Below, piece after piece: positions 477 through 61,305 of a DNA stretch of 64,000 nt. The position numbers and the translations under genes are program-made. Positions within the stretch are counted from its first letter, which is position 1. Each line of letters starts with the position of its first letter. A model generated the notes under the pieces. That model had not been told where the DNA came from. It worked only from the letters and a program-made list of their open reading frames with translations, and ran no database searches. This DNA comes from Tridacna crocea. Lineage: Eukaryota > Mollusca > Bivalvia > Cardiida > Cardiidae. Location: assembly GCA_943736015.1 (NCBI GenBank), contig OX031065.1, positions 32,626,427-32,690,426 of the forward strand, given 5' to 3'.

Positions 477-710
477 TTAAACCTTTAGCCTATAAGGCAT
501 TTCTATGGTATCTCTAATTGACCCTAAATAACATCAACGATGAAGCTGTTTCCAATGTGTATAATTATGACACCTTTTGATAGCTTAGAAAACATTGTGA
601 CAAAAAAGTGAAATTGCTCGTCACAAGCAATTTCACCTTTTGCCACAATGTTTTGCAAAGGCTCCTACAAGCAATGCATAGAAATGACTATCTATGGAGT
701 AAAGGGTTAA
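477..710. mobile_element. TTAA MITE, CTCGT-core subfamily
   Basis: The copy is bounded by TTAA at both ends (TTAAACCTTTAGCC at the left, GTAAAGGGTTAA at the right). Its central palindrome lies at about 589-655, with the core GCTCGT-C-ACAAGC and arms AACATTGTG and CACAATGTT. Compared with the main family the palindrome bases differ, but the two arms still complement each other. It matches the copies at 8891-9118 (inverted) and 24194-24413, sharing the outer arm TTTCTATGGTATCTCTAATT. Confidence 0.85.
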
Positions 711-742
711 TATGGATTGGTGTAAAGATATTGCCTGAAAAA

Positions 743-990
743 GAGCTCTAAATGTATTTCCTAATAGGCAGTGGGAAATCACCGATCTTAAGGCCTTACT
801 CTTTAACTTCAACCTGCCAACTCATGCAGTAGATTGGTTACCTTTTACAGCAAAGTGTATAGGAATCAGTACAGGCTCCTGAAAATGGGCAGAATTCATA
901 AAACAGGCAAACACTGAACTGTTTACATTACATTCAGGGGATGTCACTCTCATGGTATCTTAAGCAAATTAAAAAGCAAATTGATGTAAT
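743..990 (+). pseudogene. Decayed protein-like open stretch, family unknown
   Basis: One forward frame reads through a protein-like sequence containing ALNVFPNRQWEITDLKALLF and, after one in-frame TGA near 880, continues with KWAEFIKQANTELFTLHSGD before stopping at TAA. There is no clear splice donor inside. The amino-acid mix looks more like real coding sequence than the surrounding AT-rich DNA, but I cannot name the family. It could be a decayed transposon ORF, a pseudogene exon or chance. Confidence 0.2.
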
Positions 991-1330
991 TTTTTATGAT
1001 AATTCATTGTCAGTTTTTAATAATTTGAACAGAACAGTCATCCCGACTGGTTCTGTGTCATGCATAGGTAATTTGAAAATCCTAAAAAAAGCCTAATTTA
1101 CATATTCATATCACCTAACCACTGTTTACTTTATCAAATCAAAAGCAGAAGTGTTTTGAATTGCATCAGTTAAGAATAACAGATATGTCTTCATTAATGA
1201 TAAATTATTTTCAATATTCATATCTTGAAATAATAAAGCACAATTTTCCTTCAAGTTTCCTTCATTAAATCTGTATTCTTCATAAAACCAATATTTCCTG
1301 TTTGTCAAATGAAGGTTGTCTGCTGTGGTA
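991..1330. other. Unassigned AT-rich sequence
   Basis: No convincing gene, repeat or site was recognised between the decayed open stretch and the TTAA element that begins at 1331. Confidence 0.4.
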
Positions 1331-1877
1331 TTAAAGGTGGCCCTTCAGAATTTGGGACGAAAATTTTACAAAAATACAAAAATATCATCCTTATACTCCC
1401 AAAGCCTTATAATCGTCATTCATAAAACCCCAGCAGTCGAAAACCATCCGACATTACGAGAAATTAGAGATTTACTACGGCCAAGGTTGACATCGACGGG
1501 AAACACGTTCTATTTTTACATGAACACCTCGCTGATTTACATACTGGAAAAACACAGACGAAGCTTCAAACATAGCGTCCGAAGAAGATATTATGAAAAA
1601 TAATTACATGTTTGTTATGTAATGGAATTTAAGCCTCATTAGTCACGTGCCACTCACTTAACATTCCCACAATGCATTTTTTTGTTTTTGGCGCGAAATC
1701 TAAAAATAGCTTAAGAGGCTATGCAGCCTTTTAAGGGAATACCATCAAAAAAAATTTTTTTGGTAATTTTATTATTCTTAATTATTGATGATTTGTATTG
1801 TTTTCTCATATAAATTTCAGTGATATATATATTTTTTGATTTGGTGTGATGTGAAATTTCTAAGTACCCACCTTTAA
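1331..1877 (+). mobile_element. TTAA-flanked 547-bp non-autonomous element (family G), copy 1
   Basis: The element starts TTAAAGGTGG and ends CCACCTTTAA, giving a TTAA duplication and a short inverted terminus AGGTGG. Two further copies occur in this window, at 33252-33995 (inverted) and 58147-58688, with the same order of landmarks: GGGACGAAAATTTTACAAAA near the left end, a TACTCCCAAAGC motif, AAATCTAAAAATAGCTTAA in the middle and TAGCCTTTTAAGGGAAT before an AT-rich tail. An open frame (1316-1603) covers the left half and is largely preserved in the second copy. The superfamily is unknown; TTAA targeting suggests piggyBac- or Kolobok-type mobilisation. Confidence 0.8.
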
Positions 1878-2046
1878 ACTCTGCCTGAAACAAAAACTAC
1901 GGTGCTTAAATCATTTTCTGAAAATAGAATTTATACGTTTACCATTTTTCGAAATTTTAAGAGTTAATAAGGTACGATGGCAGATTCCCTTCACCTCTAG
2001 TAAACATGGTAGCTTGACCTAGAAACTTTTGTCTGAAAAACGTGAC

Positions 2047-2274
2047 TTAACTCATTACCAAACGACAAAATTTTAGTTTGTCCAAAGCGAAAGCATTTGC
2101 AGACGACAAAATAAAAAGTGATCCGAAATTTGAAATTTGTTTTGTGAAAGGTAGAAAACATTGTGGGAAAAGGAGAAAATGCTGGTTACCAGCATTTTCT
2201 CCTTTTCCCACAATGTTTTCTAAAGGCTTTTTCTCAGGATCGTCAAAAGTACGGATTGTGTGGTAATGGGTTAA
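2047..2274 (+). mobile_element. TTAA MITE (main family), reference copy
   Basis: This is a well-preserved 228-bp copy. It runs from TTAACTCATTACCAAACGAC to GGTAATGGGTTAA. The order is TTAA, a TIR of about nine bases, a left arm with GCATTTGCAGACGACAAAAT, the central palindrome at about 2155-2221 with the odd centre GCTGGT-T-ACCAGC, a right arm with GGATTGTGTGG, the TIR and TTAA. It has no coding capacity and is non-autonomous. The TTAA target fits piggyBac- or Kolobok-type transposases, but no transposase source is present in the window. Plus orientation for this family is defined by this copy. Confidence 0.92.
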
Positions 2275-2338
2275 GGTTTGACAGCAACATTTATTGTAAC
2301 TTCACATACAACAGTATGACAGTATTGGAACATAATAA

Positions 2339-2600: not shown

Positions 2601-2646
2601 ATTTAGATGTGACTGAGATGATGGAATTTGTCTCCTAATGATGAAA

Positions 2647-2875
2647 TTAACCCTTTCCCAAACAATCCCTGGTTTTTACGGGTCTGAAAAAGTAGCCTTT
2701 TGAAAACATTGTGGGAAAAGGAGAAAATGCTGGTAACCAGCATTTTCTCCTTTTCCCACAATGTTTTCTACCCTATCATAGACAGAAATCATCTTTTCAG
2801 CAAGAGTTGAATTGTTGTCTGCAAATGCTCTAAATTTGGTCTAGTCCAAAAATTTGTCATTTGGGAAAGGGTTAA
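2647..2875 (-). mobile_element. TTAA MITE, TTTCCC-end variant
   Basis: It runs from TTAACCCTTTCCCAAACAATC to TTTGGGAAAGGGTTAA with a near-perfect central palindrome at about 2702-2770. Both termini carry TTTCCC instead of the usual ATTACC, so the two TIRs changed together. The right TTAA is shared with the next fragment. Confidence 0.92.
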
Positions 2876-3082: not shown

Positions 3083-3215
3083 TGCCTTTTACCACACATT
3101 AATTTTTCTGTCTTCAGTTTTAAGGACTATGATGCGAGTTGCCTTTGAAAACAGAGAATACAGTGGAAAATGATTATAACCAGCATATTCTCATTTTCAT
3201 GAGGTGTTTTTACTT
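3083..3215 (-). mobile_element. Degraded TTAA MITE remnant
   Basis: The remnant shows CCTTTTACCACACATT, then CCTTTGAAAACAGAG and a diverged core ATAACCAGCATATTCTCATTTTC. The right half is missing. Confidence 0.45.
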
Positions 3216-4580
3216 GTAAATCCTTAAAGAAATCCTATCAGGGCTTTTTTTAGGGTTTGGGGAAGACACTGGTAAAAAAAACCCAGGCAATAAAGGCCTT
3301 ATTTGGCAAAAATTTACTGTCTGGCTATATATGTTGGTGTACATAATTATATATACAATGTGATATACATTATACATTATATACCATCAATAGAACTTTC
3401 AAATATGAATCTTTACAGAAACACTGAAACATATGAAAGCGAATTAAACTTTTGAACTCTCAGGTACCGATCAAACTCTCAGTTTCATGTAAAAAAGGTT
3501 GGAGGATGATGATACCCATTGTGTACTTTCTAATTCTTCCATACTTACACTGTCCGAACTAGGATCCTTGGCAACCCATTGCCTACTCTCAACTGTTCCA
3601 TAGCCTCTAATCCACAATTCATCGGATTTTGACCTAGTTTGGAATCCAAAAAAAGGATTGAGATAAGTTTTGTTATCGTTCGTGTAAATCTAACTAGGTC
3701 TTCCAGAACATCACATGATAACATTGCATCTCATAAGTGCTATGATGTAGTAGACAGGACTACTGTTTACACTTCCAATATTATATCATTGCCAAGTAAG
3801 ATTGTTCATTCTGTATCTGTTTTCTTGTTTCGATGTATTAAGCTCTTCCTGTATTAATGATAAACAAATAAGTGATAATCAGCGTTGTGTTTTTTTGTTT
3901 ACAATGTTGATCAGCTTGGTTTTCCAAACCTAGAATAGGGACAAAACAATCAAGTGACTATGAAAGTTTTTGTTTCGCCACATTGAATTATCACATGGTG
4001 TTTACAGTACTATTACATCACTGGGGAGATTTATGTCGAAAAGTCAGCTAAATGGTGGTGATCATGGATGTAAACAAACAGGTAATGTGGCATGGTAGGA
4101 CCTGTTCTAGTTTCAGAATTCTTTTTCTGCCTTTGACTAGAACTTTTACAAAACACACCTTTACATATCATTAAAGTAATAAAAATCGCCATATTTTCAA
4201 ATGGTAAAATTTATTGTACGAAGAGCCCTTTTTACATTTGGATGCTAGTGAGACCTTAAACATTGGTCGTTTTTGCAGTCAATCTTTCAGTTTAGTAGTG
4301 GGTTTATTAACTAAATCTTTGTACAATAATTAGTATTACAGAAGGGAAAGTTGATTTCTTTAGGGAAAATTGATTTCTTGGAGGAAAGCTACATTTTTAG
4401 AGAAAATTTGCTGAGTGGAAGATACCAACTATCGACATAATTTTCTTACAATATTTGATTCACATTTAATTGGAGTATGGGAAAGCTTAGTTTGGCAAAG
4501 GGTTAACCCCTTTAGGCATGTTCACATGGTTTAATTTAGGCCCTAAGAAGGTTGCAAGGCCTACACTATGTTCTTGCTAA
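3216..4580. other. Unassigned sequence
   Basis: AT-rich sequence with no supported gene. A MITE-like terminus GGCAAAGGGTTAACCCCTTTAG lies at about 4494-4515, which may be two abutting eroded ends, but no body can be traced on either side. Confidence 0.35.
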
Positions 4581-5266: not shown

Positions 5267-5482
5267 TCAACTCTTTACCAGACGACAATATTTTAGCCTT
5301 GTCCAAATTGAAAGCATTTGCAGATGACAATTTCATTGTGCTATTTCTTTGATAGGGTAGAAAACTTTGTGGGAAAAGGAGAAAATGCTGGTTACCAGCA
5401 TTTTCTCCTTTTCCCACAATGTTTTGCAAAAGGCTTCTTCCTCAGGGTCATTAAAAGTCGTCATTGTGTGGTAAAGGGTTAA
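5267..5482 (+). mobile_element. TTAA MITE (TCAA at left end)
   Basis: It runs from TCAACTCTTTACCAGACGAC to GGTAAAGGGTTAA with a near-perfect palindrome at about 5352-5420. The TTTACC state is present at both ends. The left arm carries GATGACAATTTCATTGTGCT, a variant shared with the outer nested copy at 45679. Confidence 0.88.
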
Positions 5483-6508: not shown

Positions 6509-6737
6509 TTAACTCATTACCAAACGACAAAATTTTAGACTGGTACAAATTGAAAGCATTTGCAGACGACAAAATAAAGGTGACTAAAAAATTGAAATTT
6601 GTTCTGGGAAGGGTAGAAAACACTGTGGGAAAAGGAGAAAATGCTGGTTACCAGCATTTTCTCCTTTTCCTACAGTGTTTTTAAAAGGCTTCTTTCTTAG
6701 GGGCGTCAAAAGTAGGGATTGTGTGGTAATGGGTTAA
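6509..6737 (+). mobile_element. TTAA MITE, CACTGTG/CACAGTG arm variant
   Basis: A 229-bp copy from TTAACTCATTACCAAACGAC to GGTAATGGGTTAA. The outer palindrome reads AACACTGTGGG on the left and TACAGTGTTTTT on the right. The A-to-C change from ATTGTG to CTGTG is mirrored in the other arm. Confidence 0.92.
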
Positions 6738-8890: not shown

Positions 8891-9118
8891 TATACCTTTA
8901 CTCTATGAATACTCATTTCTACGTATTGCTTGTAGGAGCCATTTGAAAACATTGTGGCAAAAGGTGAAATTGCTCGTCACGAGCAATTTCACCTTTTGTC
9001 ACAGTATTTTCTATGCTATCAAAAAGTGGCATATACACATAAGAAACAGCTTCATCCTTTCCGTTATTTAGGGCCAATTAGAGATACCATAGAAATGGCT
9101 TATGGCCTAAAGGGTTAT
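8891..9118. mobile_element. TTAA-type MITE, CTCGT-core subfamily (inverted relative to 477)
   Basis: The ends are eroded to TATACCTTTACTCTATGAAT and GGCCTAAAGGGTTAT. The core GCTCGT-C-ACGAGC has arms GTGGCAAAAGGTGAAATT and AATTTCACCTTTTGTCAC, nearly complementary. The outer arm AATTAGAGATACCATAGAAA is the complement of the left arm of the copy at 477. Confidence 0.82.
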
Positions 9119-11117: not shown

Positions 11118-11346
11118 TTAACCCATTACCACACAATCCCTACTTTTGACGCCCCTGAGAAAGAAGCCTTTTGAAAACACTGTGGGAAAAGGAGAAAATG
11201 CTGGTAACCAGCATTTTCTCCTTTTCCCACAGTGTTTTCTACCCTTCCCAGAACAAATTTCAATTTTTCAGTCACTTTTATTTTGTCGTCTGCAAATGCT
11301 TTCAATTTGGACCAGTCTGAAATTTTGTCGTGTGGTAAAGAGTTAA
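11118..11346 (-). mobile_element. TTAA MITE, CACTGTG/CACAGTG arm variant
   Basis: It runs from TTAACCCATTACCACACAAT to GGTAAAGAGTTAA. The palindrome reads GAAAACACTGTGGG and CCCACAGTGTTTTC, fully mirrored. The two TIRs differ in state (ATTACC against TTTACC). Confidence 0.92.
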
Positions 11347-22529: not shown

Positions 22530-24190
22530 TTTTTATGGAGTTAACTGAAATTTTATGGCGGTTATTAGGTATGTTCATAACCGAATCATAGGCAATGAGT
22601 TTGGTTTTTAGACTTATTTATTTTTCGAATTTTGTTTCGAATTTTGGATTTTTTTTTTCGAATTTTGGAATTTTCGTTGACTCTGTGGCGACAACCGCCA
22701 CAAAAATCTTCTCCTCTGAAACAGCCCATCAGATTTCAATGAAACTTCACAGAAATGATCCTTAGGTGATGCACTTTCAGAATACTGCAAAAATTTGAAT
22801 TCCATGAAGAACTCTGGTTGCCATGGCAACAGAAAGAAAAAGCTTTAAAAATCTTGCCCCTAACCGTAATGGCTAGAGCATTCATATTTGGCATGTAGCA
22901 TCATCTAGTGGCCTTCTACCAAAATATTTCAAATTATGGCCCTAGTGTTCAAAATGGCCCTATTTTATGGGTAATTGGATTTACTTAGAGATAAAGAAGA
23001 AAATTTTTAAAAATCTTCTTGTCCCAAACCGTAAGGATTAGAACTTTCATATTTGGCATGTAGCATCATCTAATGGCCCTCTACAGAAGTAATTCAAATT
23101 CTGGTCCTAGTGTTGAAAATGGCCCCATGTTGTGGGTTTTCGGATTTCACATAGAGATAAAGAAAGAAGTTTTTGAAAAATCTTCTTGTCCCAAAGCGTA
23201 AGAGCTAGAGCTTTCATATTTGGCATATAGCATCATCTAGTGGCCCTCTACCAAAGTACTTCAAGTTATGGCCCTAGTGTTGAAAATGGCCCTATTTTGT
23301 GGGTTATTGGATTTTACATAGAAATAAAGAAGGAAATCTTTAAAAATCTTCTTGTCCCAAACTGAAAGGGCTAGAGCTCTCATATTTGGCATTTAGAATT
23401 ATCTGGTGGCCCTCTACCAAAATACTTTAAATTATGGCCCTGATGTGAAAATTAGCCCTATATTGTTGGTCTCAGATTTCACATAGAGATTTTGCCCTTG
23501 AATGAGAAAAAATGCTTTATTTGACTTTGATTACTTTGTAGCATCTACAAACATCAACCAATCAGCACCAAACTTGGTCAGAATACATAGAATATATAAG
23601 ATCTTGGATGAATTTTGTAATGGGTATAATTCGACGAAAAGGACTGGAGTTATTTGCCCTTGAATTATAAAAACTACTATATTTGACATTGTTTACACTC
23701 TTGCATCTATAAATATCAACCAATCAGCACCAGACTTGGTCAAAATGTATATGGCTATAAGATCTCAGATTAGTTTGTTTATGGATCTAATCATACCAGA
23801 ATGACAAGAGTTATTTGCCCTTGAATGAGAAAGTTCTATAGAATAGTTCCTTGTCCCAAGCATAACTTTGTCATCTCCAGTCCGATTGACTGAAAACTTA
23901 GCATTTTGTGTTTGTTGCAATAATAGTGCAGTGTGAAAGAATCTTAACTCTACTTCCTACTGTCTGTGAGTTATTTCTGTTTGACCATCATTTTTACAAT
24001 ATTTTCTGCCTGTCTGGAATATATCTTTGTCATCTCTAGCTGAACATCTTCAAATTTTATATGCATGATTTAAGAATTACGAAATGAAGAGCACAATAAC
24101 CAGAAGTCTTCCTATAATGAATTTTGAGTTATTCGTCCTTTGACCTTCATTTTTACAGCATTTCTTGCTTGTACGGAGCAAAACTTTGTC
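22530..24190. repeat. Composite minisatellite region with roughly 150-165-bp units
   Basis: Three successive unit types can be seen. The first, at about 22840-23490, has four to five units with CATATTTGGCATGTAGCATC, ATCTAGTGGCC, GAAAATGGCCCTATTTT and CATAGAGATAAAGAA. The second, about 23500-23830, has units with TTTGCCCTTGAATGAGAAA and CATCAACCAATCAGCACCA. The third, about 23850-24190, has units with AACTTTGTCATCTCCAG and CATTTTTACAGCATTTC. The left edge contains GACTCTGTGGCGACAACCGC, which recurs inverted at the very end of the window. The style matches the cargo of the Helentron-like elements. Confidence 0.7.
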
Positions 24191-24193
24191 ATC

Positions 24194-24413
24194 TTAACCG
24201 TTTAGGTATTTCTATGGTATCTCTAATTGACCCTAACTAACAGCAAGGATGAGGTCATTTCTCTTTGTATATGACACCTTTTGATAGCATTGAAAACATT
24301 GTGGCAAAAGGTGAATATCCTTGTCACGAGCAATTTCACCCTTTGCCACAATGTTTTCCAAAGACTCATACAAGCATTGCATAGAAATGAGTATGTATGG
24401 AGTAAAGGGTTAA
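24194..24413. mobile_element. TTAA MITE, CTCGT-core subfamily
   Basis: It runs from TTAACCGTTTAGGTATTTCT to GGAGTAAAGGGTTAA. The palindrome GTGGCAAAAGGTGAA...TTTCACCCTTTGCCAC has a disturbed centre (CCTTGTCACGAGC). It shares the outer arm GGTATCTCTAATTGACCCTA with 477-710. Confidence 0.88.
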
Positions 24414-24503
24414 GTAGGAATGACTGAAAATATAATATGCTTTTTTGTTTCAATATTTGGAAGTGCACAATCTGGTCAAAAGTCCTAAATTCCTTTTGGT
24501 TTA

Positions 24504-24731
24504 TTAACCCATTACCACACAATCCCTACTTTTGACACCCCTCAGAATGAAGCCTATAGAAAACATTGTGGGAAAAGGAGAAAATACTGGTAACCAGCAT
24601 TTTCTCCTTTTCCCACCATGTTTTCTACCCTTCACAAAACAAATTTCAAATTTCCAGACACCTTTATTTCATCGTCTGCAAATGCTTTCAATTTAGACCA
24701 GTCTAAAATATTGTCGTTTGGTAATGGGTGA
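24504..24731 (-). mobile_element. TTAA MITE
   Basis: It starts TTAACCCATTACCACACAAT and ends at an eroded GGTAATGGGTGA, with a palindrome with few mismatches at about 24559-24625. Confidence 0.88.
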
Positions 24732-25114: not shown

Positions 25115-25134
25115 AAAAGCCAAAGACCCCCCCA

Positions 25135-29010: not shown

Positions 29011-29240
29011 TTAACCCTTTACCACACATTGACGACTTTTAAGGACCGTAAGAAAGAGGCCTTTTGAAAACTTTGTGGGAAAAGGAGAAAATGCTGGTAA
29101 CCAGCATTTTCTCCTTTTCCCACAAAGTTTTCTACTCTATGTAGAAAAAAAATGCATCATTTGAGCTACTATGAAATTATCGTCTGTAGATGCTTTCGAT
29201 TTGGATAGGTCTACAATGCTACTGTGTGGTAAAGAATTAA
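29011..29240 (-). mobile_element. TTAA MITE with perfect CTTTGTG/CACAAAG palindrome
   Basis: It runs from TTAACCCTTTACCACACATT to GGTAAAGAATTAA. The palindrome reads GAAAACTTTGTGGG and CCCACAAAGTTTTC. The CATTGTG-to-CTTTGTG change is mirrored exactly in the other arm, one of the clearest compensated variants. Outer arms are diverged. Confidence 0.93.
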
Positions 29241-33251: not shown

Positions 33252-33995
33252 TTAAAGGTGGGTTTTCACATCCCATCAAATGGGAAAAATATATATCACT
33301 GAAATTTATATGAAAAAACAGTACAACTCTCAACAGTCAGGATCATAAAATTACAAAAAAATATTTTGTTGATGATATTCCCTTAACCCTTTACTCCATG
33401 GATACTCATTTGACACATCAACAACAGAAAGCTTGTGAAAACATTGTGGGAAAAGGAGAAATTGCTCGTAACAAGCAATTTCTCCTTTTCCCACAATCTT
33501 TTCCACTCAGTCAGATATTTGTATCCTCATTTGTCCATATTTTTGACATCATATCTTTATTTGCTGCTGAAATGGAAGAGCCTCAAATTGGCATATCAGG
33601 TAAAGGAGTAAAAGGCTATGTAAGTCTCTTAAGCTATTTTTAGATTTCTGGCCAAAATAAAAGCATTATGGGAATATTAAGTGACTCACCTGTGACTAAT
33701 GACGCTGAAATTCCATAACATAACAAACTCGTAATTATTTTCCATAATGTCTTTTTTGGAAGTGTTTGAAGCTTTGTCTGTATATTTCCGGTATGTAGAT
33801 GAGCGAGTTGCTCATGGAAAAATAGACTGTGTTTCCCGTCAGTGTCGACCTGTGCCGTAGTAAATCTCTACTTTCTCTTGTTGTCAGATGGTTTTCGACT
33901 ACTGGGGTTTTATGAATGAAAGCTATAAGGCTTTGGGAGTATAAGGATGATATTTTTGTAAACTTTTCGTCCCAAAATCTGAAGGGCCACGTTGA
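33252..33995 (-). mobile_element. Family G TTAA element, copy 2, interrupted by a MITE
   Basis: It starts TTAAAGGTGGG and ends GGGCCACGTTGAA, aligning on the minus strand with 1331-1877 and 58147-58688. A CTCGT-core MITE (33383-33612) sits in its CCCTTAA|AAGGCTA site; the other copies read TAGCCTTTTAAGGGAAT there, so the pre-insertion TTAA is known. The open frame on the minus strand (to 33735) parallels that of copy 1: both keep SLYSQSLI, IHKTP, VENH and SLIYI. Confidence 0.85.
33383..33612. mobile_element. TTAA MITE, hybrid core (GGGAAAAGGAG with CTCGT)
   Basis: It starts TTAACCCTTTACTCCATGGA and ends GGTAAAGGAGTAAA (one T lost from the right TTAA). The palindrome uses the main family's outer arms (GTGGGAAAAGGAG) but the other subfamily's inner AAATTGCTCGTAACAAGC. 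It is inserted into family G copy 2, confirming TTAA targeting. Confidence 0.88.
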
Positions 33996-34431: not shown

Positions 34432-34664
34432 TTAACCCTTTCCTCCATATAATTATACTCGTTTTAGCACAATGAAGAAAACAGCTTTATGAAAACATTG
34501 TGAGAAAAGGTGAAATTGCTCAAAATGAGCAATTTCACCTTTTCTCACAATGTTTTCTATAAAGTCTGTATCTTAAAACCCACTAGTAGCAACATTTTAG
34601 TTGTTGTCTTCAGCTTCTTTGAATTTGGGACGGTCTCAAAATGGTGTATTAGGTAATGGGTTAA
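34432..34664. mobile_element. TTAA MITE, CTCAAAATGAG-core variant
   Basis: It runs from TTAACCCTTTCCTCCATATA to TTAGGTAATGGGTTAA. The palindrome reads GTGAGAAAAGGTGAAATTGC and GCAATTTCACCTTTTCTCAC, fully complementary although several bases differ from every other subfamily. It shares its right TTAA with the next copy. Confidence 0.9.
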
Positions 34665-37748: not shown

Positions 37749-37842
37749 TTCTCTTCTGAATCCTATGTTGTGGGTACTCATTAGAATCATCTTGATGAGA
37801 CGATTCTAATGAGTACCCATAACATAGGGTTTAGTGGAGAAG
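37749..37842. repeat. Long isolated hairpin
   Basis: TGGGTACTCATTAGAATC is followed after a short loop by GATTCTAATGAGTACCCA, 18 perfect pairs. CCTATGTT and AACATAGG add outer pairs, and CTTCT and AGAAG lie further out. The stem-loop is pre-miRNA-sized, belongs to no repeat seen elsewhere in the window and sits directly beside a Helentron-like 5' end. Confidence 0.8.
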
Positions 37843-37854: not shown

Positions 37855-39150
37855 TAGCTCTACTGGCTTTCAGCCAGCAGAGCTTATGTCATGGTGTGGT
37901 TTCCGTCGTCCGTCCGTCTGTCTGTCCGTCCGTCCGTCTGTCCGTCTGTTAGTCTTTTCTTGTTTACGCGATAAAGTCTGCATTTCTTGCCCGATTTTCG
38001 TGAAACTTGCACAGTTTGTTTATCTCATCAATAGCTTTAACCCTATTGATTTTGAGAAAAATCCAACCAACAGTATGGGAAAAGTAGCCATTTCAAGTTG
38101 AAAATTTCAAATTCTTGTTTACGCGATAAAGTCTGCATTTGTTGACCGATTTTCGTGAAACTTGCACAGTTTGTTTATCTCATCAATAGCTTCAACCCTA
38201 TCGATTTTGAAAAAAATCCAACAAACAGTATGGGAAAAGTAGCCATTTCAAGTTGAAAATTTCAAATTTTTGTTTACGTGATAAAGTCTGCATTTGTTGC
38301 CTGATTTTCGTGAAACTTGCACAGTTTGTTTATCTTATCAATAGCTTCAACCCTATTGATTTTGAAAAAAATCCAACAAACAGTATGGAAAAAGTAGCCA
38401 TTTCAAGTTGAAAATTTCCAATTCTTGTTTATGCAATAAAGTCTGCATTTGTTGTCTGATTTTCATGAAAATCACACATTTTGTTTATCTTATCAGTAGC
38501 TCCAACCCTATTGATTTTGAGAAAAATCCAACAAACAGTATGGGAAAAGTAGCCATTTCAACTTGAACATTTTAAATTCTTGTTTAGGCGATAAAGTCTG
38601 CATTTGTTGCCTAATTTTCGTGAAACGTGCACAGTTTGTTTATCTCATCAATAGCTTCAACCCTATTGATTTTGAAAAAAAATCCAACAAACAGTATGGG
38701 AAAAGTAGCCATTTCAAGTTGAAAATTTCAAATCATTGTTTACGCAATTAAGTCTGCATTTGTTTCCTGATTTTCATGAAAATCACACAGTTTGTTTATC
38801 TTATCAGTAGCTTCATTCCTATTGATTTTGAGAAAAATCCAACAAACAGTATGGAAAAAGTAGCCATTTCAAGTTGAAAACTTTTAATTCTTGTTTAGGG
38901 GATAAAATGTGCATTTGTAATTAGATTTTTGTGAAACTTGCACAATTTGTTTATCTCAATTATAGCTTCAACCCTATCTATTTTGAAATAAATCCAACAA
39001 ACAGTATGGGAAAAGAAACCATTTCAAGTTGAAAATTACCAATTCTTGTTTTCGTGACAAAGTATGCATTTCTTGTCAGATTTTCATGAAAAAGCAAAAT
39101 CGAATTCTCTGCCAGTAGAGCATATTCAGGCCCTTCAGGGCCTTCTAGTT
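37855..39150 (+). mobile_element. Complete Helentron-like element, CTACTGGC type, long
   Basis: It has the same 5' hairpin (AGCTCTACTGGCTTTCAGCC) and 3' hairpin plus CTAG (AGGCCCTTCAGGGCCTTCTAG) as 35937-36748, but about seven minisatellite units of roughly 157 bp instead of four. A GTCCGTCTGTCCGTCC microsatellite sits between the 5' hairpin and the units. Unit number is the main difference between the two copies. Confidence 0.88.
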
Positions 39151-40584: not shown

Positions 40585-40817
40585 TTAACCCTTTGCCAAT
40601 ATATCCCGGTTTCATCATCCTGTAGAAGGGGCCTTTTAAAAACATTGTGGGAAAAGGAGAAAATGTTGGTAACCAGGATCTAGTCCTTTTTCCACAATAT
40701 TTTCTCCCCTATCAAAGCAAGATTGTGCCATTTGAACCACACTGAAATTGTTCTCTGCAAAATTTAATGCTTTCAATTTGGACAAGGCTACCATTTTGTT
40801 GTTTTGTAAAGGGTTAA
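40585..40817 (-). mobile_element. TTAA MITE, array member 5
   Basis: It runs from TTAACCCTTTGCCAATATAT to TTTTGTAAAGGGTTAA. The right arm AGGATCTAGTCCTTTTTCC has drifted. It shares its right TTAA with member 6. Confidence 0.88.
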
Positions 40818-41049
40818 ATCTTTTCCAAACGAGAAAATTTTAGACCGGTCCAAATTGAAAACATTTGCTGATGACAAAATAAATGTGACTGAAAAATTGA
40901 AATTTGGTTTTAGAAGGGTTGAAAACATTGTGGTAAAAGGAGAAAATGCTGGTTACCAGCATTGCCTCCGTTTCCCACAATGTTTTCAAAAGGCTTCTTT
41001 CTCTGGGTTGTTAAAAGTCGGGGGGGGGATTGGATGGTGAAGGGGTTAA
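40814..41049 (+). mobile_element. TTAA MITE, array member 6
   Basis: It runs from TTAAATCTTTTCCAAACGAG to GGTGAAGGGGTTAA, with a poly-G expansion near 41021. It shares TTAA tetranucleotides with both neighbours. Confidence 0.9.
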
Positions 41050-41247
41050 CTCTTTACCACACAATCCCAAGTTTTAATGAACCTGAGAAAGAAGCCTTTT
41101 GAAAACAGTGTGGGAAAAGGAGAAAATGCTGTAGAAAGCAGCATTTTCTCCTTTTCCCACAATATTTTCTAATCTTGATTCTTATCTAGGACAAATTTTG
41201 CTCACATTTAATTTGTTGTATACAACTGAGTTAAATTTGCTTCCAAA
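41046..41247 (-). mobile_element. TTAA MITE, array member 7, right end truncated by a SINE
   Basis: It starts TTAACTCTTTACCACACAAT. The palindrome centre is changed to GCTGTAGAAAGCAGC while the arms still pair. The outer right arm ends at ACTGAGTTAAATTTG, where SINE body begins. Confidence 0.85.
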
Positions 41248-41475: not shown

Positions 41476-42904
41476 TAGCTTCACTGGCTAAAGGCCAGCG
41501 GGCTTATGTCATGGCCCGTTGTCTGTCTTGCATCTGTGTGTGTGTAAACTTTTATTTCAAACATCTTCTTCTCTTAAACTACACACCCAATTTTGATGAA
41601 ACTTCACAGAAATGATCCTGCCATGGTCCTCTTCAGAATCCCTTGAAAGAATTTTATTCCTTTAAAAACTCTGGTTGCCATGGCAACAAAACTGAAAAAA
41701 AAATGAAAATTTTTAAAAATCTTTTTCTCTGAAACCATACGGCCTAGGGCTACCAAATTTGGCATGTAGCTTTATCTAGTTGACCTCTACTAAGTGACTT
41801 CAAATAATAGCCCTGGGGTCAAAATTGGCCCCGTCCCAGGGGTCACAAAATTTATATGGGCTTACATAGGGAAAACTTTAAAATCCTTCATGTACCTAGC
41901 CATAGGGCTACCAAATTTGGCATGTATATTTATCAACTGGTTGTCTGCCAAAAGTGCCCAAATGATAGCCCCGGGGGTGATATTTGACACAGCCCCAGGG
42001 GTCACAAGTTTTATAGGGGCTTATATAGGGAAAACTTTAAAATCCTTGTGGTACCTAGCTATAGGGCCTAGGGCTACAAAATTTTGCATGTATCTTTATC
42101 AAGTGGTTGTAAACCAAGATTGCCCACGTGATAGCCAAGGGGTCAAATTTGGCCTGGCCCTGGGGGTCACAAGTTTTATATAGACTTACATCGGGAAACT
42201 TTAAAAACCTTCTGGTATCTAGCCATATGGCCTAGGGCTACTCAATTTTACATCTAGCTTTATCTGGTGGTTGTCTACTAAAGGTGCCCAAATTAAAGCC
42301 CTGGGGTTAAGTTTGGCCCTGTCCTGGGAGTCACAAGTTTTACATGGGCTCTTATTGGAAATAAAAAATCTACTTGTACCTAGCCATAAGGCCTAGGACT
42401 ACCAAATTTTGCATTGTAACTTTATTTAGTGGGCCTCTACCAGGAGGGCCCAAATTGTAGCCTTGGGGTCCAGTTTGTCCCTACACCAGGGGACACCTGA
42501 GGTCACATGTTTTAAATGGGCTTTTGCGGTGAAAACTTTCTAAGTCATCATGTTACGAACCATAATAAAGACTAGGGCTATTAAATTTAGCCCTGTCTCA
42601 TGGGTTTCATGATTTACAGGGCCTTTTATTGAGAAAACTTTGAAAATCTTCTTCTTTATAACCGCACATTTTAGAACTGTATGGGGCTTTATCTTGTGGA
42701 CCTCCACCAGGATTCAAATAATTATAGCTTTACGGTCAAAATTGGCTTTGCCTGGGGGTCACAACTTTCTTGTAGGATTAGATAGAAACATTTTTGCATG
42801 TCCTCAAGTTTGAAACCAATTGGTCAATTATTGTAATGTTTGGCTTGTGGTGTTTTAACTTATTAGCGAGTGGAGCCATACAGGGCCATCATGGCTCTCT
42901 TGTT
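41476..42904 (+). mobile_element. Complete Helentron-like element, CACTGGC type
   Basis: The 5' hairpin AGCTTCACTGGCTAAAGGCC is followed by a short leader and about seven diverged units of roughly 160 bp: CCTAGCCATAGGGCCTAGGG, TACCAAATTTGGCATGTA, GTGCCCAAATGATAGCCC and GGGGTCACAAGTTTTATA. The 3' end is the hairpin AGGGCCATCATGGCTCT followed by CTTGTT. The 129-codon frame at 41794-42183 is only a reading of the units. Confidence 0.82.
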
Positions 42905-44398: not shown

Positions 44399-44627
44399 TT
44401 AACTCTTTACCAAACAACAAAATATTAGACTGGTCCAAAATGAATGCCTTTGTAGACAAAAAAATAAATACGACTAAAGAATTGAAATTTGTTTTAGGAA
44501 GAGAAGAAAACATTGTGGGAAAAGGAGAAAATGCTGGTTACCAGCATTTTCTCCTTTTCCCACAATGTTTTCTAAAGGCTTCTTTCTTAGGGTCATCAAA
44601 AGTAGGGATTGTCTGGTAAAGGGTTAA
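44399..44627 (+). mobile_element. TTAA MITE
   Basis: It runs from TTAACTCTTTACCAAACAAC to GGTAAAGGGTTAA, with a perfect palindrome at about 44507-44573. It shares TTAA with the next copy. Confidence 0.93.
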
Positions 44628-45678: not shown

Positions 45679-46115
45679 CCCTTTATCCTTTACAAGACAA
45701 CAAAATTTTAGCCTTGTCCAAATTTAAACCTCATTACCACACAAGAAAATTTTAGACTGGTCCAAATTGAAAGCATTTGCAGAGTACAACAGAAAGGTGA
45801 CTCAAAAATAAAAATTTGTTCTGGTAAGGGTAGAAAACACTGTGGGAAAAGGAGAAAATGCTGGTTACCAGCATTTTCTCCTTTTCCCACAGTGTTTCCA
45901 AAATGCTTCTTTCTCAGGGGCGTCCAAAGTAGGGATTGTGTGGTAATGGGTTAAAGTGTTTTCAGATGACAATTTCAGCGTGGCACAAATGGTGCTATAT
46001 TTCTTTGACAGTGTAGTAAACATTGTGGGAAAAGAAGAAAATACTGCTTACAAGCATATTTCCTTTAACCACAATGTTTGCAAATACAGTGTCTTCCAAA
46101 GTGTGAAAAGTCTCC
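45679..46115 (+). mobile_element. Outer TTAA MITE interrupted by a second copy
   Basis: It starts TTTATCCTTTACAAGACAAC and TTTTAGCCTTGTCCAAA, is interrupted at a TTAA (45724-45954), then resumes as GTGTTTTCAGATGACAATTT and TTCTTTGACAGTGTAGTAAA through a diverged palindrome. Without the insert, the left arm reads as in the copy at 5267-5482. The right outer arm is lost near 46115. Confidence 0.82.
45724..45954 (+). mobile_element. Inner TTAA MITE nested in another MITE
   Basis: It runs from TTAAACCTCATTACCACACA to GGTAATGGGTTAA, with perfect CACTGTGGG/CCCACAGTG arms and core GCTGGTTACCAGC. The outer copy supplies the TTAA. Confidence 0.92.
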
Positions 46116-46753: not shown

Positions 46754-46983
46754 TTAACTCTTTACCTGATATGCCAATTTAAGGCTCTTCCATTTCAGCA
46801 GCAAATAAAGATATGATGTCAAAAATATGGACAAATGAGGATACAAATATCTGATTGAGTGGAAAACATTGTGGGAAAAGGAGAAATTGCTCGTTACGAG
46901 CAATTTCTCCTTTTTCCACAATGTTTTCAAAAGCTGTCTGTTGTTGATACGTCAAAACGAGTATCTATGGAGTAAAGGGTTAA
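46754..46983. mobile_element. TTAA MITE, hybrid core (GGGAAAAGGAG with CTCGT)
   Basis: It runs from TTAACTCTTTACCTGATATG to GGAGTAAAGGGTTAA. The palindrome joins the main family's outer arms with inner AAATTGCTCGT-T-ACGAGC. It is the inverted relative of 33383-33612 and shares its right TTAA with the next copy. Confidence 0.92.
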
Positions 46984-47200
46984 CTCTTTACCAAACGACA
47001 AAATTTTAGACTGGTCCAGATTGAAAGCAAACAACAGAATAAATGTGACTCAAATATTGAAATTTGTTTTGAGAAGGGAAGAAAACATGGTGGGTTAAGG
47101 AGAAAATGCTTGTTACCAGCATTTTCTCCTTTTCCCACAGTATTTTTGATAGGCTTCTTTCTTAGGGTTGTTAAAAGTCGGGACTGTGGTAAAGAGTTAA
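46980..47200 (+). mobile_element. TTAA MITE sharing the preceding TTAA
   Basis: It runs from TTAACTCTTTACCAAACGAC to GGTAAAGAGTTAA. The left palindrome arm has a run of changes (ATGGTGGGTTAAGGAG). Confidence 0.9.
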
Positions 47201-47229: not shown

Positions 47230-48680
47230 TAGCTCACCTGAGCACAACGTGCTCAAGGGGAGCTTTTAGGATCACCCAGTGTCCGTCGTCCGTCGTGCGT
47301 CGTGCGTCGTGCGTCGTCCGTCGTGCGTCGTCAACAATTCTTTAAACATCAACTCCTCCTAAACCGCTGGGCGGATTTTGACCAAACTTGGCAGGAATGT
47401 TCCTTGGGAGGTCCTCTTTAAAAATTGTTCACAGAATTTGATTCCATCAAAAACTCTGGTTGCCATGGCAACCAAATGGAATTTTTTAGCAAATTCTTTA
47501 AAAATCTTCTCCTCTGAAACCGCTGGTCGGATTTCGAAATAATTTCACAGATATGTTCCTTGGGTGACCCTTTTCAAAAATTGTTCGTGAAATTTTGATT
47601 GGTCAAAAAATGTGGCTCTGGTGAATGGGGGCTTCTTGCACTATACAGAAATGAAGGAATTCTTTAAAAATCTTCTCCTCTGAAACCGCTGATTGGATTT
47701 TGAAATAATTTCACAGATATGTTCCTTGGGTGACCCTTTTCAAAAATTGTTCGCGAAATTTTGATTGGTCAAAAATAGTGGCTCCGGTGAATGGGGGCTT
47801 CTTGCACTGTACAGCAATGAAGGAATTCTTAAAAAATCTTCTTCTCTGAAACCGCTGGCCAGATTTTAAAATAATTTCACACAGATGTTCCTTGGGTGAC
47901 CCTTTTCAAAAAGTGTTCGCGAAATTTTGACCCGTCAAGAAACATGGCTCTGGTGAATGGGGGCTTCTTGCACTATACAGAAATGAAGAAATTCTTAAAA
48001 ATTCTTCTTCTCTGAAACCGCCCGCCAGATTTTGAAATAATTTCACAGAGATATTCCTTGGGTGTCCCTTTTCTAAAATTGTTCGCGAAATTTTGATTGG
48101 CCAAGAAACATGGCTCTAGTGAATGGGGGCTACTTGCACTAGATGGAAATGAAGAAATTCTTGAAAATTCTTCTTCTCTGAAACCCGTGGTCAGATTTTA
48201 AAATAATCTGACAGAGATGTTCCTTGGGTGACCCTTTCCAAAAGCTGTACATATAATTTTGATCCGTCAAGAAACATGGCTCTTGTGAATGGGGGCTACT
48301 TGCACTATACGGACATAATGAAATTCTTTAAAATTCCCTTTTCGAAACCCCTGGTCAGATTTTGAAATAATTTCAGAGAGATGTTCCTTGGGTGACCCTT
48401 TTCAAAACTTGTTCGTAAATTTTGATCCATCAAGAAACTTGGCTCTCGTGGATGGGGACTACTTGCTCTTATACAGAAATGATGAATTCTTAAAAATTCT
48501 TCTTTTTGAAACTGATGGTCAGATTTCGAAAAGACTTTTACAGGTGACCTTTTGAAAATTGCTTGGCAAAATTATAAATTTGGTTCCAATGTTTCAGCGC
48601 TTAAAAAAAAAAAAAAAATAGACTACGGTCATCTCAATAATTCAGGTGAGCGATCCAGGGCCATCTTGGCCCTCTTGTTT
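47230..48680 (+). mobile_element. Complete Helentron-like element, GCTCACCTGAGC type
   Basis: The 5' hairpin AGCTCACCTGAGCACAACGTGCTCAAGGGGAGCT is followed by a GTCGTCCGTCGTGCGTC microsatellite and about eight units of roughly 155 bp: CTTCTCCTCTGAAACCGCTG, GATTTTGAAATAATTTCACA, GTTCCTTGGGTGACCCTTTT and GTGAATGGGGGCTTCTTGCA. A poly-A tract precedes the 3' end AGGTGAGCGATCCAGGGCCATCTTGGCCCTCTTGTTT, a hairpin plus CTTGTT. After it comes AGCTTTGTGATAGTGCTGTG, which looks like the start of another copy. Confidence 0.88.
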
Positions 48681-52445: not shown

Positions 52446-52656
52446 TTAACCCTTTCCCAAACGGCAAATTTTGGACCAGATCAAATTGAAAGCATTTTGC
52501 AGATGACAAATTAATAGTTTCTAAAAAGATGATTTTTCTATGTGATAGGGTAGAAAACATCGTGGGTTACCAGCATTTTCTCCTTTTTCCACAATGTTTT
52601 CAAAAGGCTTCTATTCCTGACCCATAAAAACCAGGGATTGTTTGGGAAAGGGTTAA
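52446..52656 (+). mobile_element. TTAA MITE, TTTCCC ends, left palindrome arm deleted
   Basis: It runs from TTAACCCTTTCCCAAACGGC to TTTGGGAAAGGGTTAA, TTTCCC at both ends. The left arm goes AACATCGTGGG directly to TTACCAGC, so a deletion ends at the palindrome centre. It shares TTAA with the next copy. Confidence 0.9.
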
Positions 52657-52864
52657 CCCTTTACCAAACAATCCCTGGTTTTTACGACCCTGAGATAGAA
52701 ACCTTTTGAAAACATGGTGGGAAATGCTGATAACCAGCATTTTCTCCTTTTCTCACAATGTTTTCTACCCAGCTGGAAACAAATTTCAAATTTAGAGTAG
52801 TTATCTACTGCAAGTGCTTAAAATTTGAACCAGTCTAAAATTTTGTTGTATGGTAAAGAATTAA
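52653..52864 (-). mobile_element. TTAA MITE sharing the preceding TTAA
   Basis: It runs from TTAACCCTTTACCAAACAAT to GGTAAAGAATTAA. The left palindrome arm is shortened to GTGGGAAATGCTGATAACCAGC while the right arm is complete. Confidence 0.9.
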
Positions 52865-52984
52865 CCAGATTACAAAATTTTAGATTAAATTTTTTTTTTT
52901 TTATTTTAAAGACATGTGCAGATGACAAATTAAACATGGCTCAATATTATGTGAATTTGCTTAAAATTACAGAGGAGAAGGCAT
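52861..52984 (+). mobile_element. TTAA MITE left-half remnant cut by a SINE
   Basis: It shares TTAA with the preceding copy (TTAACCAGATTACAAAATTT), then GTGCAGATGACAAATTAAAC and AGAGGAGAAGGCATGC. SINE sequence replaces the rest. Confidence 0.55.
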
Positions 52985-53262
52985 GCTAGGTAAAAGAAAA
53001 AGAGAGCAGCAAGACTTGAAACCTGGGATTGCTGGTTGGAATTCCCCACTCGGGCAGGTTTTTGTCCCAAGACTGATGATAGTTATTGTGACATATGCTG
53101 ATCACTGTTTCAGTGACTGGTATGTGGGGAAAAAGGCAGTGGTTTTGAAAGAATATTATGCAAAGTACTTGATGAAGGAACTACAGGAAAGCATGGATAA
53201 GTGCAGTTGCCAGCCACAATATATCTGAAATAAAGCTTAAAATAGCGTTTAAAACATTATAC
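52985..53262 (+). repeat. SINE with decayed tRNA-like head
   Basis: GCTGGTTGGAATTCCCCACT is a decayed B-box region, followed by ACTGATGATAGTTATTGTGA, GATCACTGTTTCAGTGAC, TATGTGGGGAAAAAGGCAGT, GATAAGTGCAGTTGCCAGCC and the tail end GAAATAAAGCTTAAAATAGC. The 81-codon frame 52983-53228 is only a reading of this SINE. Confidence 0.68.
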
Positions 53263-58087: not shown

Positions 58088-58146
58088 GATGACAAAGGAT
58101 GTACATATTATAAATACCCTCAAAAAGTAAAAGTTTTATCCTGTAG

Positions 58147-58688
58147 TTAAAGGTGGCCTTTCAGATCCTGGGACGAAAATTTTACAAAAGTACAAAAAAA
58201 TCATCCTTATACTCCCAAAGCATGACAATTTTCTTTCGTAAAACCCGGTAGTCAAAGACCATACGACAACAAGAGAAATTAGAGATTCACAACAGCCCAG
58301 GTCGACACCGACGTGACATACGATCTATTTATACATGAGCAACTCGCTCATTTATATACTGGAAATACACATTCGAAGCTTCAAACATAGCGACCGAAGA
58401 TGACATTATGGAATATAATTGCATGTTTGTTATGTTTTGGAATTTAAGCGACCATTCGTCACGTGCCAGTCACTTAACATTCCCACAATGCTTTTTTTAT
58501 TTTTGCGGCGAAATCTAAAAATAGCTTAAGGGGCTACGTAGCCTTTTAAGGGAATGCCATTTAAAAAAAAAATGTAATTTCGTGATTCTTAATTATTGAT
58601 GATTGGTATTGTTTTTTTCATATAAATTTTAGTGATATATATATTTTTTTATTTGGTGTGATGTGAAAAATGTAAATACCACCTTTAA
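58147..58688 (+). mobile_element. Family G TTAA element, copy 3
   Basis: It runs from TTAAAGGTGGCC to ACCACCTTTAA, 542 bp, colinear with 1331-1877. The left-half frame seen in copies 1 and 2 is disrupted here. CATGAGCAACTCGCTCAT at about 58335-58352 is a small internal palindrome. Confidence 0.85.
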
Positions 58689-60202
58689 AGAGGCTTTTTA
58701 GATTTTTTTTTAAACTTCAAATTGCAATTATAAGACCAACATCTATAAATACAAGAAAATGTACTTTGAATCTAAAGGGACTGAAAATATACAACTTCAT
58801 GCAGTCAAGGGTGTGAATTTGGTAAGCAAAAACTTGGGTTGGTCGCTCTGCAATGGTTAACTGTCTATTTTTATGAGATTAAATATGATACCATTTATAT
58901 GAATATGATGCATGTAAGTGATGTGCATGAGTCATCTTGGGACATTTTCACAAATATTTATGAAAATCTGGTGCAAAATCTTTAGATACTGTACAGAGTC
59001 TACAGAGCCTATCAAGGGAATGCCACTAAGAAATATTTTTTTTATCATTTTTCCTCTTTTCTTTACTAATGGTTTGGCAGCTGTAGCCCTGCTTAATTCA
59101 GTGACAAATAATTTTCTAATGCTTGATAAGATTATAAGAACAGCCCCCATTAAAGTTTCAGAATTCTGTCAGTTCAGTTATTACATAATTATGAAGCAAG
59201 TGTATCATCGCATAGCAGTAATAACTACCTTGCCTGATCAGTCATTTAGAAATTCCGCTACCAAAGCATCAGAAAATGATTACAGCTGTAATGATACCCT
59301 AGAGGTTAATTTCACATAGCTATGTGCAGAAATAACTTGGCAAATCAAAGTGTAGGCAGTACTATTAGAGGGCACATAGATAAAGCATAGAATACCATAA
59401 CTTTTGTATTTAACCCCCTCCTATCCCCATGAGCTAGCTTGTAACGAGTGGTTGCACCCTCAATAGTGGTCAAATAGGAATAGGTTTGGAGGGTATTACA
59501 GTTGGGTATCTAATCAGGAAGTTTGTTGTACTGATAAAAACTGTCAGAGTACAAAACTTTTTTTAGGAAAGAAATAAAAGGCATTTTTTTGAGAAAAGAG
59601 AAATTCAAATCCATATTATTGATGGTTTTATGGGAGTAAAGGAGAAAATGTCTGCTTCTTGATACTACTGTACTTTTTCCTGGTGTACCTTTCTCTGAAT
59701 TGCCTACATGCTGAGCTTAGGTAAGCTAGCATCAAGTTTGAAAACAAGTGTAGGGTTCTGCATAAATTTACAATTTGAGTATATATTTGCAAAACTGTTC
59801 GACAGTTGATACTTTCAGGTAAAGCAGGTATTGTAATTAATGTCTGTATGTCATTATGATGCCAATTAATTTGCGATCCCAATTTATTTGCCTACATCTA
59901 CTTAGTTTAGCTAAATCCCTGGGGCTGTATTCACCAACCTTTCTTAAATTTGTATCATTAGTTAACATGTTAACATCTATTTCTCCTATTTTCTCCCTAG
60001 CAGATGTTCCATGTCCTACATTCTTTGTGTAATATATGTTGTTATTAATTAATAATAATGCTATGAATATGTAGATATTCAACGCAATAAAGATATGTAG
60101 GTATGTATGCATTAGTCTAATTCTAGATTTAAAAAGCAAGAAAATATTTTAATTGCTATCCCATTTGGTTTGGTCTTATAGTTATTTCAATAATGGTTTT
60201 AT
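58689..60202. other. Unassigned sequence
   Basis: No element boundaries. A segment near 59006-59045 (CCTATCAAGGGAATGCCACT) resembles the TAGCCTTTTAAGGGAATGCC motif of family G. A 133-codon forward frame (58918-59319) is not recognised and has no splice sites, so it is not called as a gene. The sequence around 60030-60075 is very AT-rich. Confidence 0.35.
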
Positions 60203-60431
60203 TTACCCTTCACCAGATAATCTTGAAGTTAACAACTCTGATGAAGAAGTGTTTTGAAAACATTATTATAGGAAAGGGAAAATGACGGAAATCATTTTCT
60301 GCTTTTCTTCCATAATGTTATCTGCCAATTCAAAGACAAATCCCAAATTTTGAGCTGAATTTAAGATTTCTACAAACACTGTCAATATGGACCAGACCAA
60401 AAATTTTGCCCTAGAGCTGCTAGAGGGTTAA
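60203..60431 (-). mobile_element. Diverged TTAA MITE
   Basis: It starts TTTACCCTTCACCAGATAAT, keeps GTGTTTTGAAAACATTATTA and ATGTTATCTGCC, and ends GCTAGAGGGTTAA. The core is nearly lost (GACGGAAATC). Confidence 0.68.
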
Positions 60432-61089
60432 AGTCCAAGTAATGCCAATTTCTTGAGAAAATAACCAAGGACACTTTGTTTTGAAATCTCAAATCAATTT
60501 TTGTCATTAAGAAGATACCATCTTGTACAAATATTTAAATATTGCCAAGTGCTCAGAGTGCTGTGATGAAATAAGAGACAGCTAGCTAATCTCAACAAAG
60601 GCATACACCACTAGTGTTGCAAGTGCTGCCGGTATAGATCAGGATCAGATCATGCGCATAACAAGCAGCCTGATCTTATATTGACACTGCCTAATATCTT
60701 TTTTCTACTACTATAATTACAATACCCTGTCTGTTTTGGAAATAATCATGGTGTAAAGAGTAACACAGACTTTAATCCTTTACCAATCAGTCCCAAGTTT
60801 TAACGAACAATATTTCAATCTCAACTGAAGAAAGTTGTTAAAAGGTTTCACAGGCACTGGTCCTCAGATCTTGGTCTGTCAGATAATGGCATTGTCATTT
60901 ATTTTCTTGTCTGAATGGTAGATGTAAATTAGCCAGAATTTTGAATATTTAACATTTTTTCTTTGGTTACTACAGTTTTAGACTAAGATTTACTATTAAT
61001 AAACTCTGAGACTGGTACCATTTTTTTCCTGTTAGTTCCCCACACTTAAATTAATACTCCCCCAGATTTTTTTCTGACTAGTTGCAAAT
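60432..61089. other. Unassigned sequence with repeat traces
   Basis: A short hairpin repeat copy (GGTATAGATCAGGATCAGAT) is at about 60634-60690, and a MITE end fragment (TTTAATCCTTTACCAATCAG) is at about 60772-60810. No gene seen. Confidence 0.4.
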
Positions 61090-61305
61090 TAGGACAAAAT
61101 TGTAGACTGGTCCAAATTGAAAGCACTTGCAGATGACAAATTATATGTAACTAAAAAATTGAAATTTGTTTCCAGCAGGGTAGAAAACATTGTGGCAAAA
61201 AGGGGAAAATGCTGGTTACCAGCATTTTCTCCTTTTCCCAGAATGTTTTCAAAAGGCTCCTATTTCAGGGTCGTAAAAAGTAGGGATTGTGTGGTAAAGA
61301 GTTAA
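61090..61305 (+). mobile_element. TTAA MITE, left end truncated
   Basis: It starts inside the arm at AGGACAAAATTGTAGACTGG and ends GGTAAAGAGTTAA with the core GCTGGTTACCAGC. It shares TTAA with the next copy. Confidence 0.88.

Follow-up and report, generated by a model that had tools for sequence, protein, structure and literature searches.

The question raised by this locus is how an inverted repeat can differ in sequence from copy to copy and still pair with itself. The locus is a stretch of 64,000 nucleotides from Tridacna crocea (contig OX031065.1, positions 32,626,427 to 32,690,426 of the forward strand), referred to below as the window. The inverted repeat forms the centre of a miniature inverted-repeat transposable element (MITE) with TTAA ends, of which the window contains many copies. 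An earlier note had described this central repeat of about 67 bp as remaining self-complementary while its bases vary between copies. The phenomenon is real, and the variants that copies have in common are mirrored between the two arms.

The MITE family and its abundance

The consensus of the TTAA-ended element has a length of 229 bp. The palindrome occupies consensus positions 108-174, and its 67 bp consist of 33 bases, one centre base and another 33 bases. A profile was derived from 25 window copies and searched in the window and in 27 fetched stretches (locus numbers with L), which gave 315 non-overlapping matches in total, 76 of them in the window. The element has the features of a MITE. 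It is short and lacks coding capacity (a consensus of 229 positions could hold no more than 76 codons, coding being judged from length only), it has terminal inverted repeats, and it occurs in high copy number with uniform length. As read from the consensus, 14 of the 17 outermost positions match in the terminal inverted repeats; the statement in the earlier note that the outer arms are not complementary has to be amended for these 17 bp. TTAA, the putative target-site duplication, was present within 8 bp of 66 of the 74 ends of the 37 full window copies.

The window is located on contig 10 at 32.6 Mb, in an assembly of 31 contigs of which 18 are large. Nineteen arbitrary 10-kb stretches (L009-L027; 190 kb) contained 198 matches, 94 of them near full length. 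The MITE covered 3-33% of each of these stretches, with a mean of 18%, which is a large share for one single MITE family. Extrapolation from 0.02% of the genome gave an estimate of about half a million near-complete copies. Exact matches to the 33-base arm number 98,648 in forward and 98,122 in reverse orientation (196,770 occurrences in 1.05 Gb), and the perfect 67-mer with centre T occurs 26,428 times genome-wide. No publication on this MITE was found in the open-access library searched.

Fifteen of the 75 pairs of neighbouring matches in the window abut within 5 bp, several of them in opposite orientation, as if the terminal TTAA of an older MITE served as the insertion site of a newer one; a few of the 15 are fragments of a single copy. 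Abutting pairs are present at window positions 34433-34889, 40586-41239, 46755-47199 and 52447-53000, among others.

Mirrored variation in the palindrome

The individual examples first described were confirmed, namely C8/C8' at 6509, 11118 and 45726, T7/T7' at 29011, and the variants at 477, 24279 and 34432. Fifty-nine window copies cover enough of the centre to be tabled, and five of these palindromes are perfect. For a shuffle test 24 of the 59 (22 distinct) were hand-picked for few gaps. Two-sided changes were found at 8 pairs, compared with 3.0 after shuffling, and in 20 cells, compared with 3.7; none of 500 shuffles reached these values. Sliding the partner reduced the two-sided cells to 1-4. 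When window and fetched copies were combined, 237 of the 315 matches were retained at the consensus step as spanning the core, and 176 of the 231 distinct ones were used to count mirrored identical changes. There were 93, compared with 27.7 expected under independent arms.

Single variants were counted in 158 copies, a set without loci L001-L008 (fetched by exact arm) and without copies exceeding 3 gaps or 10 changes per arm. To be listed, a variant had to occur five times or more on one arm. G31C was present in 16 left arms, 13 right arms and 10 times in both (1.3 expected in both), A26T in 17, 17 and 13 (1.8), A21T in 9, 10 and 6 (0.6), G14C in 7, 8 and 4 (0.4), and A7T in 6, 6 and 3 (0.2). 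The transition T8C was found in 24 left arms, 29 right arms and 19 times in both (4.5). Mirrored variants at the six positions 7, 8, 14, 21, 26 and 31 were thus common to at least three copies each. Ordinary hot spots on both arms were rejected as an explanation for the listed transversions and T8C, the both-counts being far above independence. Such hot spots do account for most of the G>A and C>T cells; at position 6 this sample had 16 left and 16 right changes and a single double, compared with 1.65 expected. After eight diagnostic variants (A7T, T8C, G14A, G14C, A21T, A26T, G31C and G32A) were set aside, the remaining variants gave 22 joint occurrences, compared with 12.9 expected.

The mirrored variants at the six positions are mainly inherited haplotypes. 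The symmetric haplotypes were C8; T26+C31; C8+T26+C31; C14+T21+T26+C31; A13+T21+T26+C31+A32; and T7. A more distant palindrome inside a piggyBac locus, with arms of 33 and 32 bases as read from the sequence, also shows mirrored differences from the main arm, positions 23-24 included.

All four window palindromes that were folded with DNA parameters (copies 2047, 29011, 34433 and 46755) gave one 67-nt hairpin, that of copy 2047..2275 with -37.2 kcal/mol. This folding would suit selection of the hairpin as RNA, in which transcripts with the 67-nt stem are processed to miRNA- or siRNA-like small RNAs, and a precedent is the reported human miRNA family derived from the MITE Made1 (PMC1784062). An Rfam search of the window, however, gave no match at gathering level, and mobility is the simpler explanation for a perfect stem in a multicopy mobile element. 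A role as RNA is regarded as very improbable.

Conservation of the core between subfamilies

The 166 copies not fetched by exact arm formed five clusters when grouped by their outer arms; with the exact-arm loci included, 187 copies formed six clusters of at least four copies. The consensuses of the five clusters differed on average by 0.231 in the outer arms and by 0.036 in the palindrome, which was identical in 6 of the 10 consensus pairs. For the six clusters the differences were 0.216 and 0.030. None of the 33 pairs was asymmetric in any of the six consensus cores, although one position of the smallest cluster was decided by a bare plurality. Outer arms were also fetched for 20 copies each of the mirrored-6, mirrored-14, non-mirrored double, perfect and left-only-6 types, and here too one core was common to several subfamilies with very different outer arms.

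Singletons in the largest cluster, which has 70 copies, amounted to 0.0148 per base in the core and 0.0108 in the outer arms. The core is therefore not a mutational cold spot. Variants seen at most three times were about equally frequent (0.0294 and 0.0341 per base), while all variants together reached 0.0490 per base in the core compared with 0.1093 in the outer arms. A common variant, carried by about 20% or more of the copies, was found in 22 of 162 outer or terminal columns but in only 2 of 67 palindrome columns, and these two are position 8 and its partner. The depletion of common core variants despite normal singletons points to purifying selection on those copies that found others, and constraint in the source copies is supported.

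If only shared ancestry were at work, a few founders would have been symmetric by chance and would have marked their descendants, with neither constraint nor copying. The earlier note had named such an outcome as the one that would speak against its proposal. The mirrored variants do lie in discrete haplotypes and most mirrored changes are inherited; ancestry nevertheless leaves the symmetry of the founders and the conserved core unexplained. What counts against it is that the outer arms diverged by 22-23% on average while the core did not, despite equally frequent private mutation, and the six positions with mirrored variants also argue against it. This explanation is disfavoured and considered quite improbable.

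Interlocus conversion between copies could homogenise the core across subfamilies. It would produce identical cores on very different outer arms, and some copies look chimeric, such as a cluster of 13 copies described below. On the other hand, singletons were not depleted in the core, and arm distances across the core correlated with r 0.62, compared with r 0.53 within the left arm (130 copies), so that a recombination hot spot at the palindrome is not supported. Conversion is a highly improbable cause of the conserved core.

The reading preferred here is that the 67-bp dyad-symmetric core is needed in cis for the spread of the MITE, most likely as a hairpin that is extruded or as a site to which a dimeric or multimeric protein binds, and we give this somewhat better than an even chance. 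The palindrome apparently stays intact in spreading copies, and a core change in a spreading lineage usually affects both halves together.

Decay of single copies and mirrored doubles

After insertion the two arms decay almost independently. On a poorly resolved tree of the outer arms (134 tips) the terminal branches carried 13 mirrored co-changes, compared with 11.2 after permutation (standard deviation 3.2), which is no excess. Internal branches carried 6, compared with 2.1 (standard deviation 1.2). Slid partners gave 0-6 on terminal and 0-2 on internal branches. Because the mirrored changes are carried in symmetric haplotypes and show no terminal-branch excess over permutations, most of them look inherited.

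Several observations weigh against a cis-acting core. The terminal mirrored co-changes exceed the values with slid partners, though not those of the permutations; the slid-partner null is lower because an identical base change is demanded at another position. On the internal branches of this poorly resolved tree the changes were mostly one-sided, with 34 left and 41 right changes and 6 mirrored ones. Within clusters the palindrome is still 0.32-0.65 as divergent as the outer arms, the lower core divergence there being put down to outer-arm substructure, and core conservation could in part be due to conversion between copies. A binding protein or autonomous partner was not found, 8 of 118 PF13843 loci having been read for a partner. 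Finally, mirrored doubles are in limited excess in the exact genome-wide counts, whose statistical power greatly exceeds that of the tree. C>T at position 6 occurred 1,157 times in the left arm only, 946 times in the right arm only and 125 times in both, compared with 41.4 expected. G>A at position 14 occurred 1,532 times in the right arm only and 269 times in both, compared with about 89 expected if left-only equals right-only counts, the latter standing in for the former. These doubles are spread over many outer-arm backgrounds. Even within one right-flank type (5,540 perfect copies and 274 with the right-only change) 49 copies were mirrored at position 14, compared with about 13.6 expected.

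The doubles at these two positions are about 3-fold over independence, while the single non-mirrored combination that was counted (position 6 left, position 14 right) occurred 80 times compared with 67.1 expected, a ratio of 1.19. This difference favours arm-to-arm copying as the main cause, by which template switching during replication or gap repair at a hairpin or cruciform in source elements would maintain symmetry without selection. Template switching between the arms of inverted repeats is reported to yield arm homogenisation and spacer inversion (PMC8604942). The exact 67-mer counts do not fix the orientation of the element, and left and right are therefore swapped in flipped-centre copies (several of 100 fetched). 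Duplicates may be present among the mirrored copies. Four of the listed places with a mirrored position 14 are spaced at about 5 kb on C4, and the outer arms of two of the copies examined are identical.

Thirty of the 49 mirrored copies of the right-flank type were read, and 29 of these, together with four copies obtained earlier, made up 33 mirrored copies among 77 pooled. Thirteen of the 33 formed one cluster by eye, with a distinctive left arm, although a permutation test for clustering over the whole pooled set was not significant (p 0.33). In another mini-subfamily, 3 of the 20 fetched mirrored-14 copies clustered together. The 13-copy mini-subfamily (among L136-L165, L064 and L070) seems to combine a left arm like that of one subfamily with a right arm like that of another, and it has the mirrored change at position 14. 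Both clusters count in favour of shared ancestry, and the genome-wide excess of mirrored doubles arises partly through mini-subfamilies. With the 13-copy cluster set aside, the excess at position 14 in this flank type is estimated at only about 1.8-fold over the background scaled by 1.19, or about 2% of the mutated copies, which argues against arm-to-arm copying as the main cause, as does the missing terminal-branch excess over permutations. Furthermore, copying alone preserves symmetry but allows the sequence to drift, whereas the core sequence is conserved between subfamilies. As the main cause, copying is possible but not likely.

The centre base

Read in arm orientation, the centre base was T in 127 of the 158 copies; 22 had A, 6 had C and 3 had G. 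At the remaining T sites of the core, T>A amounted to 1.95% of 2,516 site reads; the rate at the centre was seven times that rate (p 8e-13 for the excess). The outer-arm tree gave 14 inferred T>A changes at the centre, whereas the other T sites averaged 2.45 and had no more than 4; the poor resolution of the tree inflates such figures. A-centred copies were not clustered by their outer arms (p 0.33; 166-copy set). These scattered A centres match the spacer inversion predicted by template switching at a hairpin or by cruciform inversion. They favour arm-to-arm copying and speak against shared ancestry alone.

The signal was weaker in copies with a perfect GCTGGT/ACCAGC inner core, whose centre was T in 74, A in 5, C in 4 and G in 1. 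The frequencies of C and G were also raised in the 158 copies, and A versus C against the other T sites gave p 0.01. Centre A did not clearly accumulate with age: it was present in 2 of 30 copies with 0-2 core mutations, 8 of 47 with 3-5, 2 of 30 with 6-8, 4 of 13 with 9-11, 1 of 9 with 12-14 and 0 of 4 with 15-17.

Cruciform- or hairpin-templated copying between the arms is supported as a minor process, resting on the inversion of the centre base and on the scattered mirrored doubles. The earlier note had offered two causes, a functional fold and copying between the arms; the former is supported as constraint in the source copies, the latter in this minor part.

Relation to other TTAA elements

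The ends of piggyBac-type elements begin with CCC, and Kolobok and Sola2/3 are other superfamilies with TTAA target sites. The MITE has TTAA at its ends; its right end starts with CCC and its left end with CTC or CCC. Like the known TTAA MITEs of the piggyBac type, it is short and non-coding, with terminal inverted repeats, TTAA ends and a very high copy number. It differs from them by the central 67-bp palindrome, which is its best conserved part and changes in mirrored fashion.

The genome contains 118 matches to PF13843 (DDE_Tnp_1_7). None of the 8 piggyBac-domain loci read has the ends of the MITE as its own ends. Five of them (L030, L031, L033, L034 and L035) have own ends of the TTAACCC type, and the ends resembling those of the MITE next to L030, L031, L032 and L035 are parts of complete or partial MITE copies. 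L034 is not supported as the autonomous partner; the related palindrome sits there in two inverted copies of another element. The piggyBac element itself (L034:456-4119) has TTAACCCTCTAGA ends, a frame of 496 amino acids from the first start (591 in the open frame) and four TGTTGCA-N4-TGCAACA-like palindromes, two towards each end. The two inverted copies inside it (932-1240 and 3111-3363) belong to an element with a related GAAAACATTGTG palindrome, which is complete only in the first copy.

The ends of piggyBac and piggyBat contain palindromic sites bound by two transposase C-terminal domains (PMC11707139). They are a precedent for a dyad-symmetric cis site read by a transposase dimer in TTAA transposons. 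Those sites measure 14-19 bp and lie near the ends, whereas the core of the MITE is 67 bp long, central and nearly perfect. DINE-1 of Drosophila is a MITE-like element whose 3' stem-loop varies in stem sequence between species and stays self-complementary, which its authors ascribed to compensatory change (PMC2374699). That stem has 7-11 nt near the 3' end and was compared between species; here 33 pairs vary within one genome, and the variation was checked against ancestry and private mutation. Template-switch homogenisation of inverted repeats (PMC8604942) would be in line with the centre flip and the residual mirrored doubles, but is here a minor process beside the conservation of the core sequence.

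Copies in the window and other repeats

Representative copies are listed in Table 1. The element at 477..708 matches the profile at 569-667, and its outer arms are unlike those of the main family.

Table 1. MITE copies and related elements in the window, with type and state of the palindrome
Position	Strand	Element	Type or haplotype	Palindrome	State	Basis
477..708	+	C14-type element, TTAA at both ends	GTGGC...GGTG	about 588-655, with slips	decayed, 28/33	read from sequence
2047..2275	+	MITE copy	A1	2154-2220	perfect, 33/33	
2647..2875	-	MITE copy	A1	2702-2768	perfect	
5269..5482	+	MITE copy	one-sided T7 change		32/33	profile alignment
6509..6737	+	MITE copy	C8/C8'	6616-6682	31/33, two one-sided changes	
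8933..9025	-	partial match, outer arms diverged	C14+T21+T26+C31	8945-9011		
11118..11346	-	MITE copy	C8/C8'	11173-11239	perfect, 33/33	
24279..24412	+	partial match	C14+T21+T26+C31 (GTGGC...GGTG)	24291-24357	decayed, 28/33	
29011..29239	-	MITE copy	T7/T7'	29066-29132	perfect, 33/33	
33385..33513	-	partial match	T26+C31 (GCTCGT core)	33437-33503	31/33, left position 31 = T	
34433..34663	-	copy	A13+T21+T26+C31+A32 (GTGAG...GGTG)	34491-34557	32/33	
44399..44627	+	MITE copy	A1	44506-44572	perfect	
45726..45954	+	MITE copy	C8/C8'	45833-45899	32/33	
46755..46982	+	copy	T26+C31	46862-46928	32/33	
61076..61304	+	MITE copy	A1		30/33, three one-sided changes	

A second palindromic family, CCTATGTTGT...GGTACTCATTAGAAT, was found at window positions 37762-37828, at L013:92-158 and at L017:3109-3183, and the L013 and L017 copies differ by a mirrored C/T variant. 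Further long palindromes, whose arms measure 63-91 bases, are present at L023:379-528, L011:421-548, L018:7299-7484 and L021:5952-6092; the one in L023 is perfect over 150 bp and starts with TTAATTATAAAATAAACAC. Some of the other palindromes in the fetched stretches resemble repeats of bivalve genomes. Repeats in tandem or in clusters, with periods of about 155 and 166 bp, occur in the window at 22874-27004, 35969-36578, 37895-39125, 41745-42492 and 47492-48455.

Proposed function of the core

According to the interpretation preferred here, the core would be a symmetric cis-acting site that copies keep for their mobilisation, most likely bound by a dimeric or multimeric protein, for example a transposase acting in trans, or extruded as a hairpin. 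A change in one arm would weaken the site, and the lineage would survive if a matching change arose in the other arm or if the change was copied across in a hairpin event. The copying route is plausible because of the centre flips. Occasional arm-to-arm copying would supply ready-made mirrored alleles, which would have to pass the same filter. We infer that selection acts through mobilisation and that a protein reads both arms.

A further and rather unlikely possibility is a self-repairing cis site, in which each mobilisation passes through a hairpin or cruciform and one arm serves as template for the other. If this were true, self-repair would erase or mirror damage to one arm, flip the centre base and renew the symmetric site in those copies that multiply further.

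Because exact copies number tens of thousands, selection on source copies can be separated from mutation in dead insertions, a distinction that is easily blurred in studies of MITEs. The cis requirements of MITEs are normally sought at their ends; in this family a symmetric site at the centre of the element seems to be required. Accounting for nearly a fifth of the DNA sampled, the family is also a natural, genome-scale record of hairpin-templated mutation.

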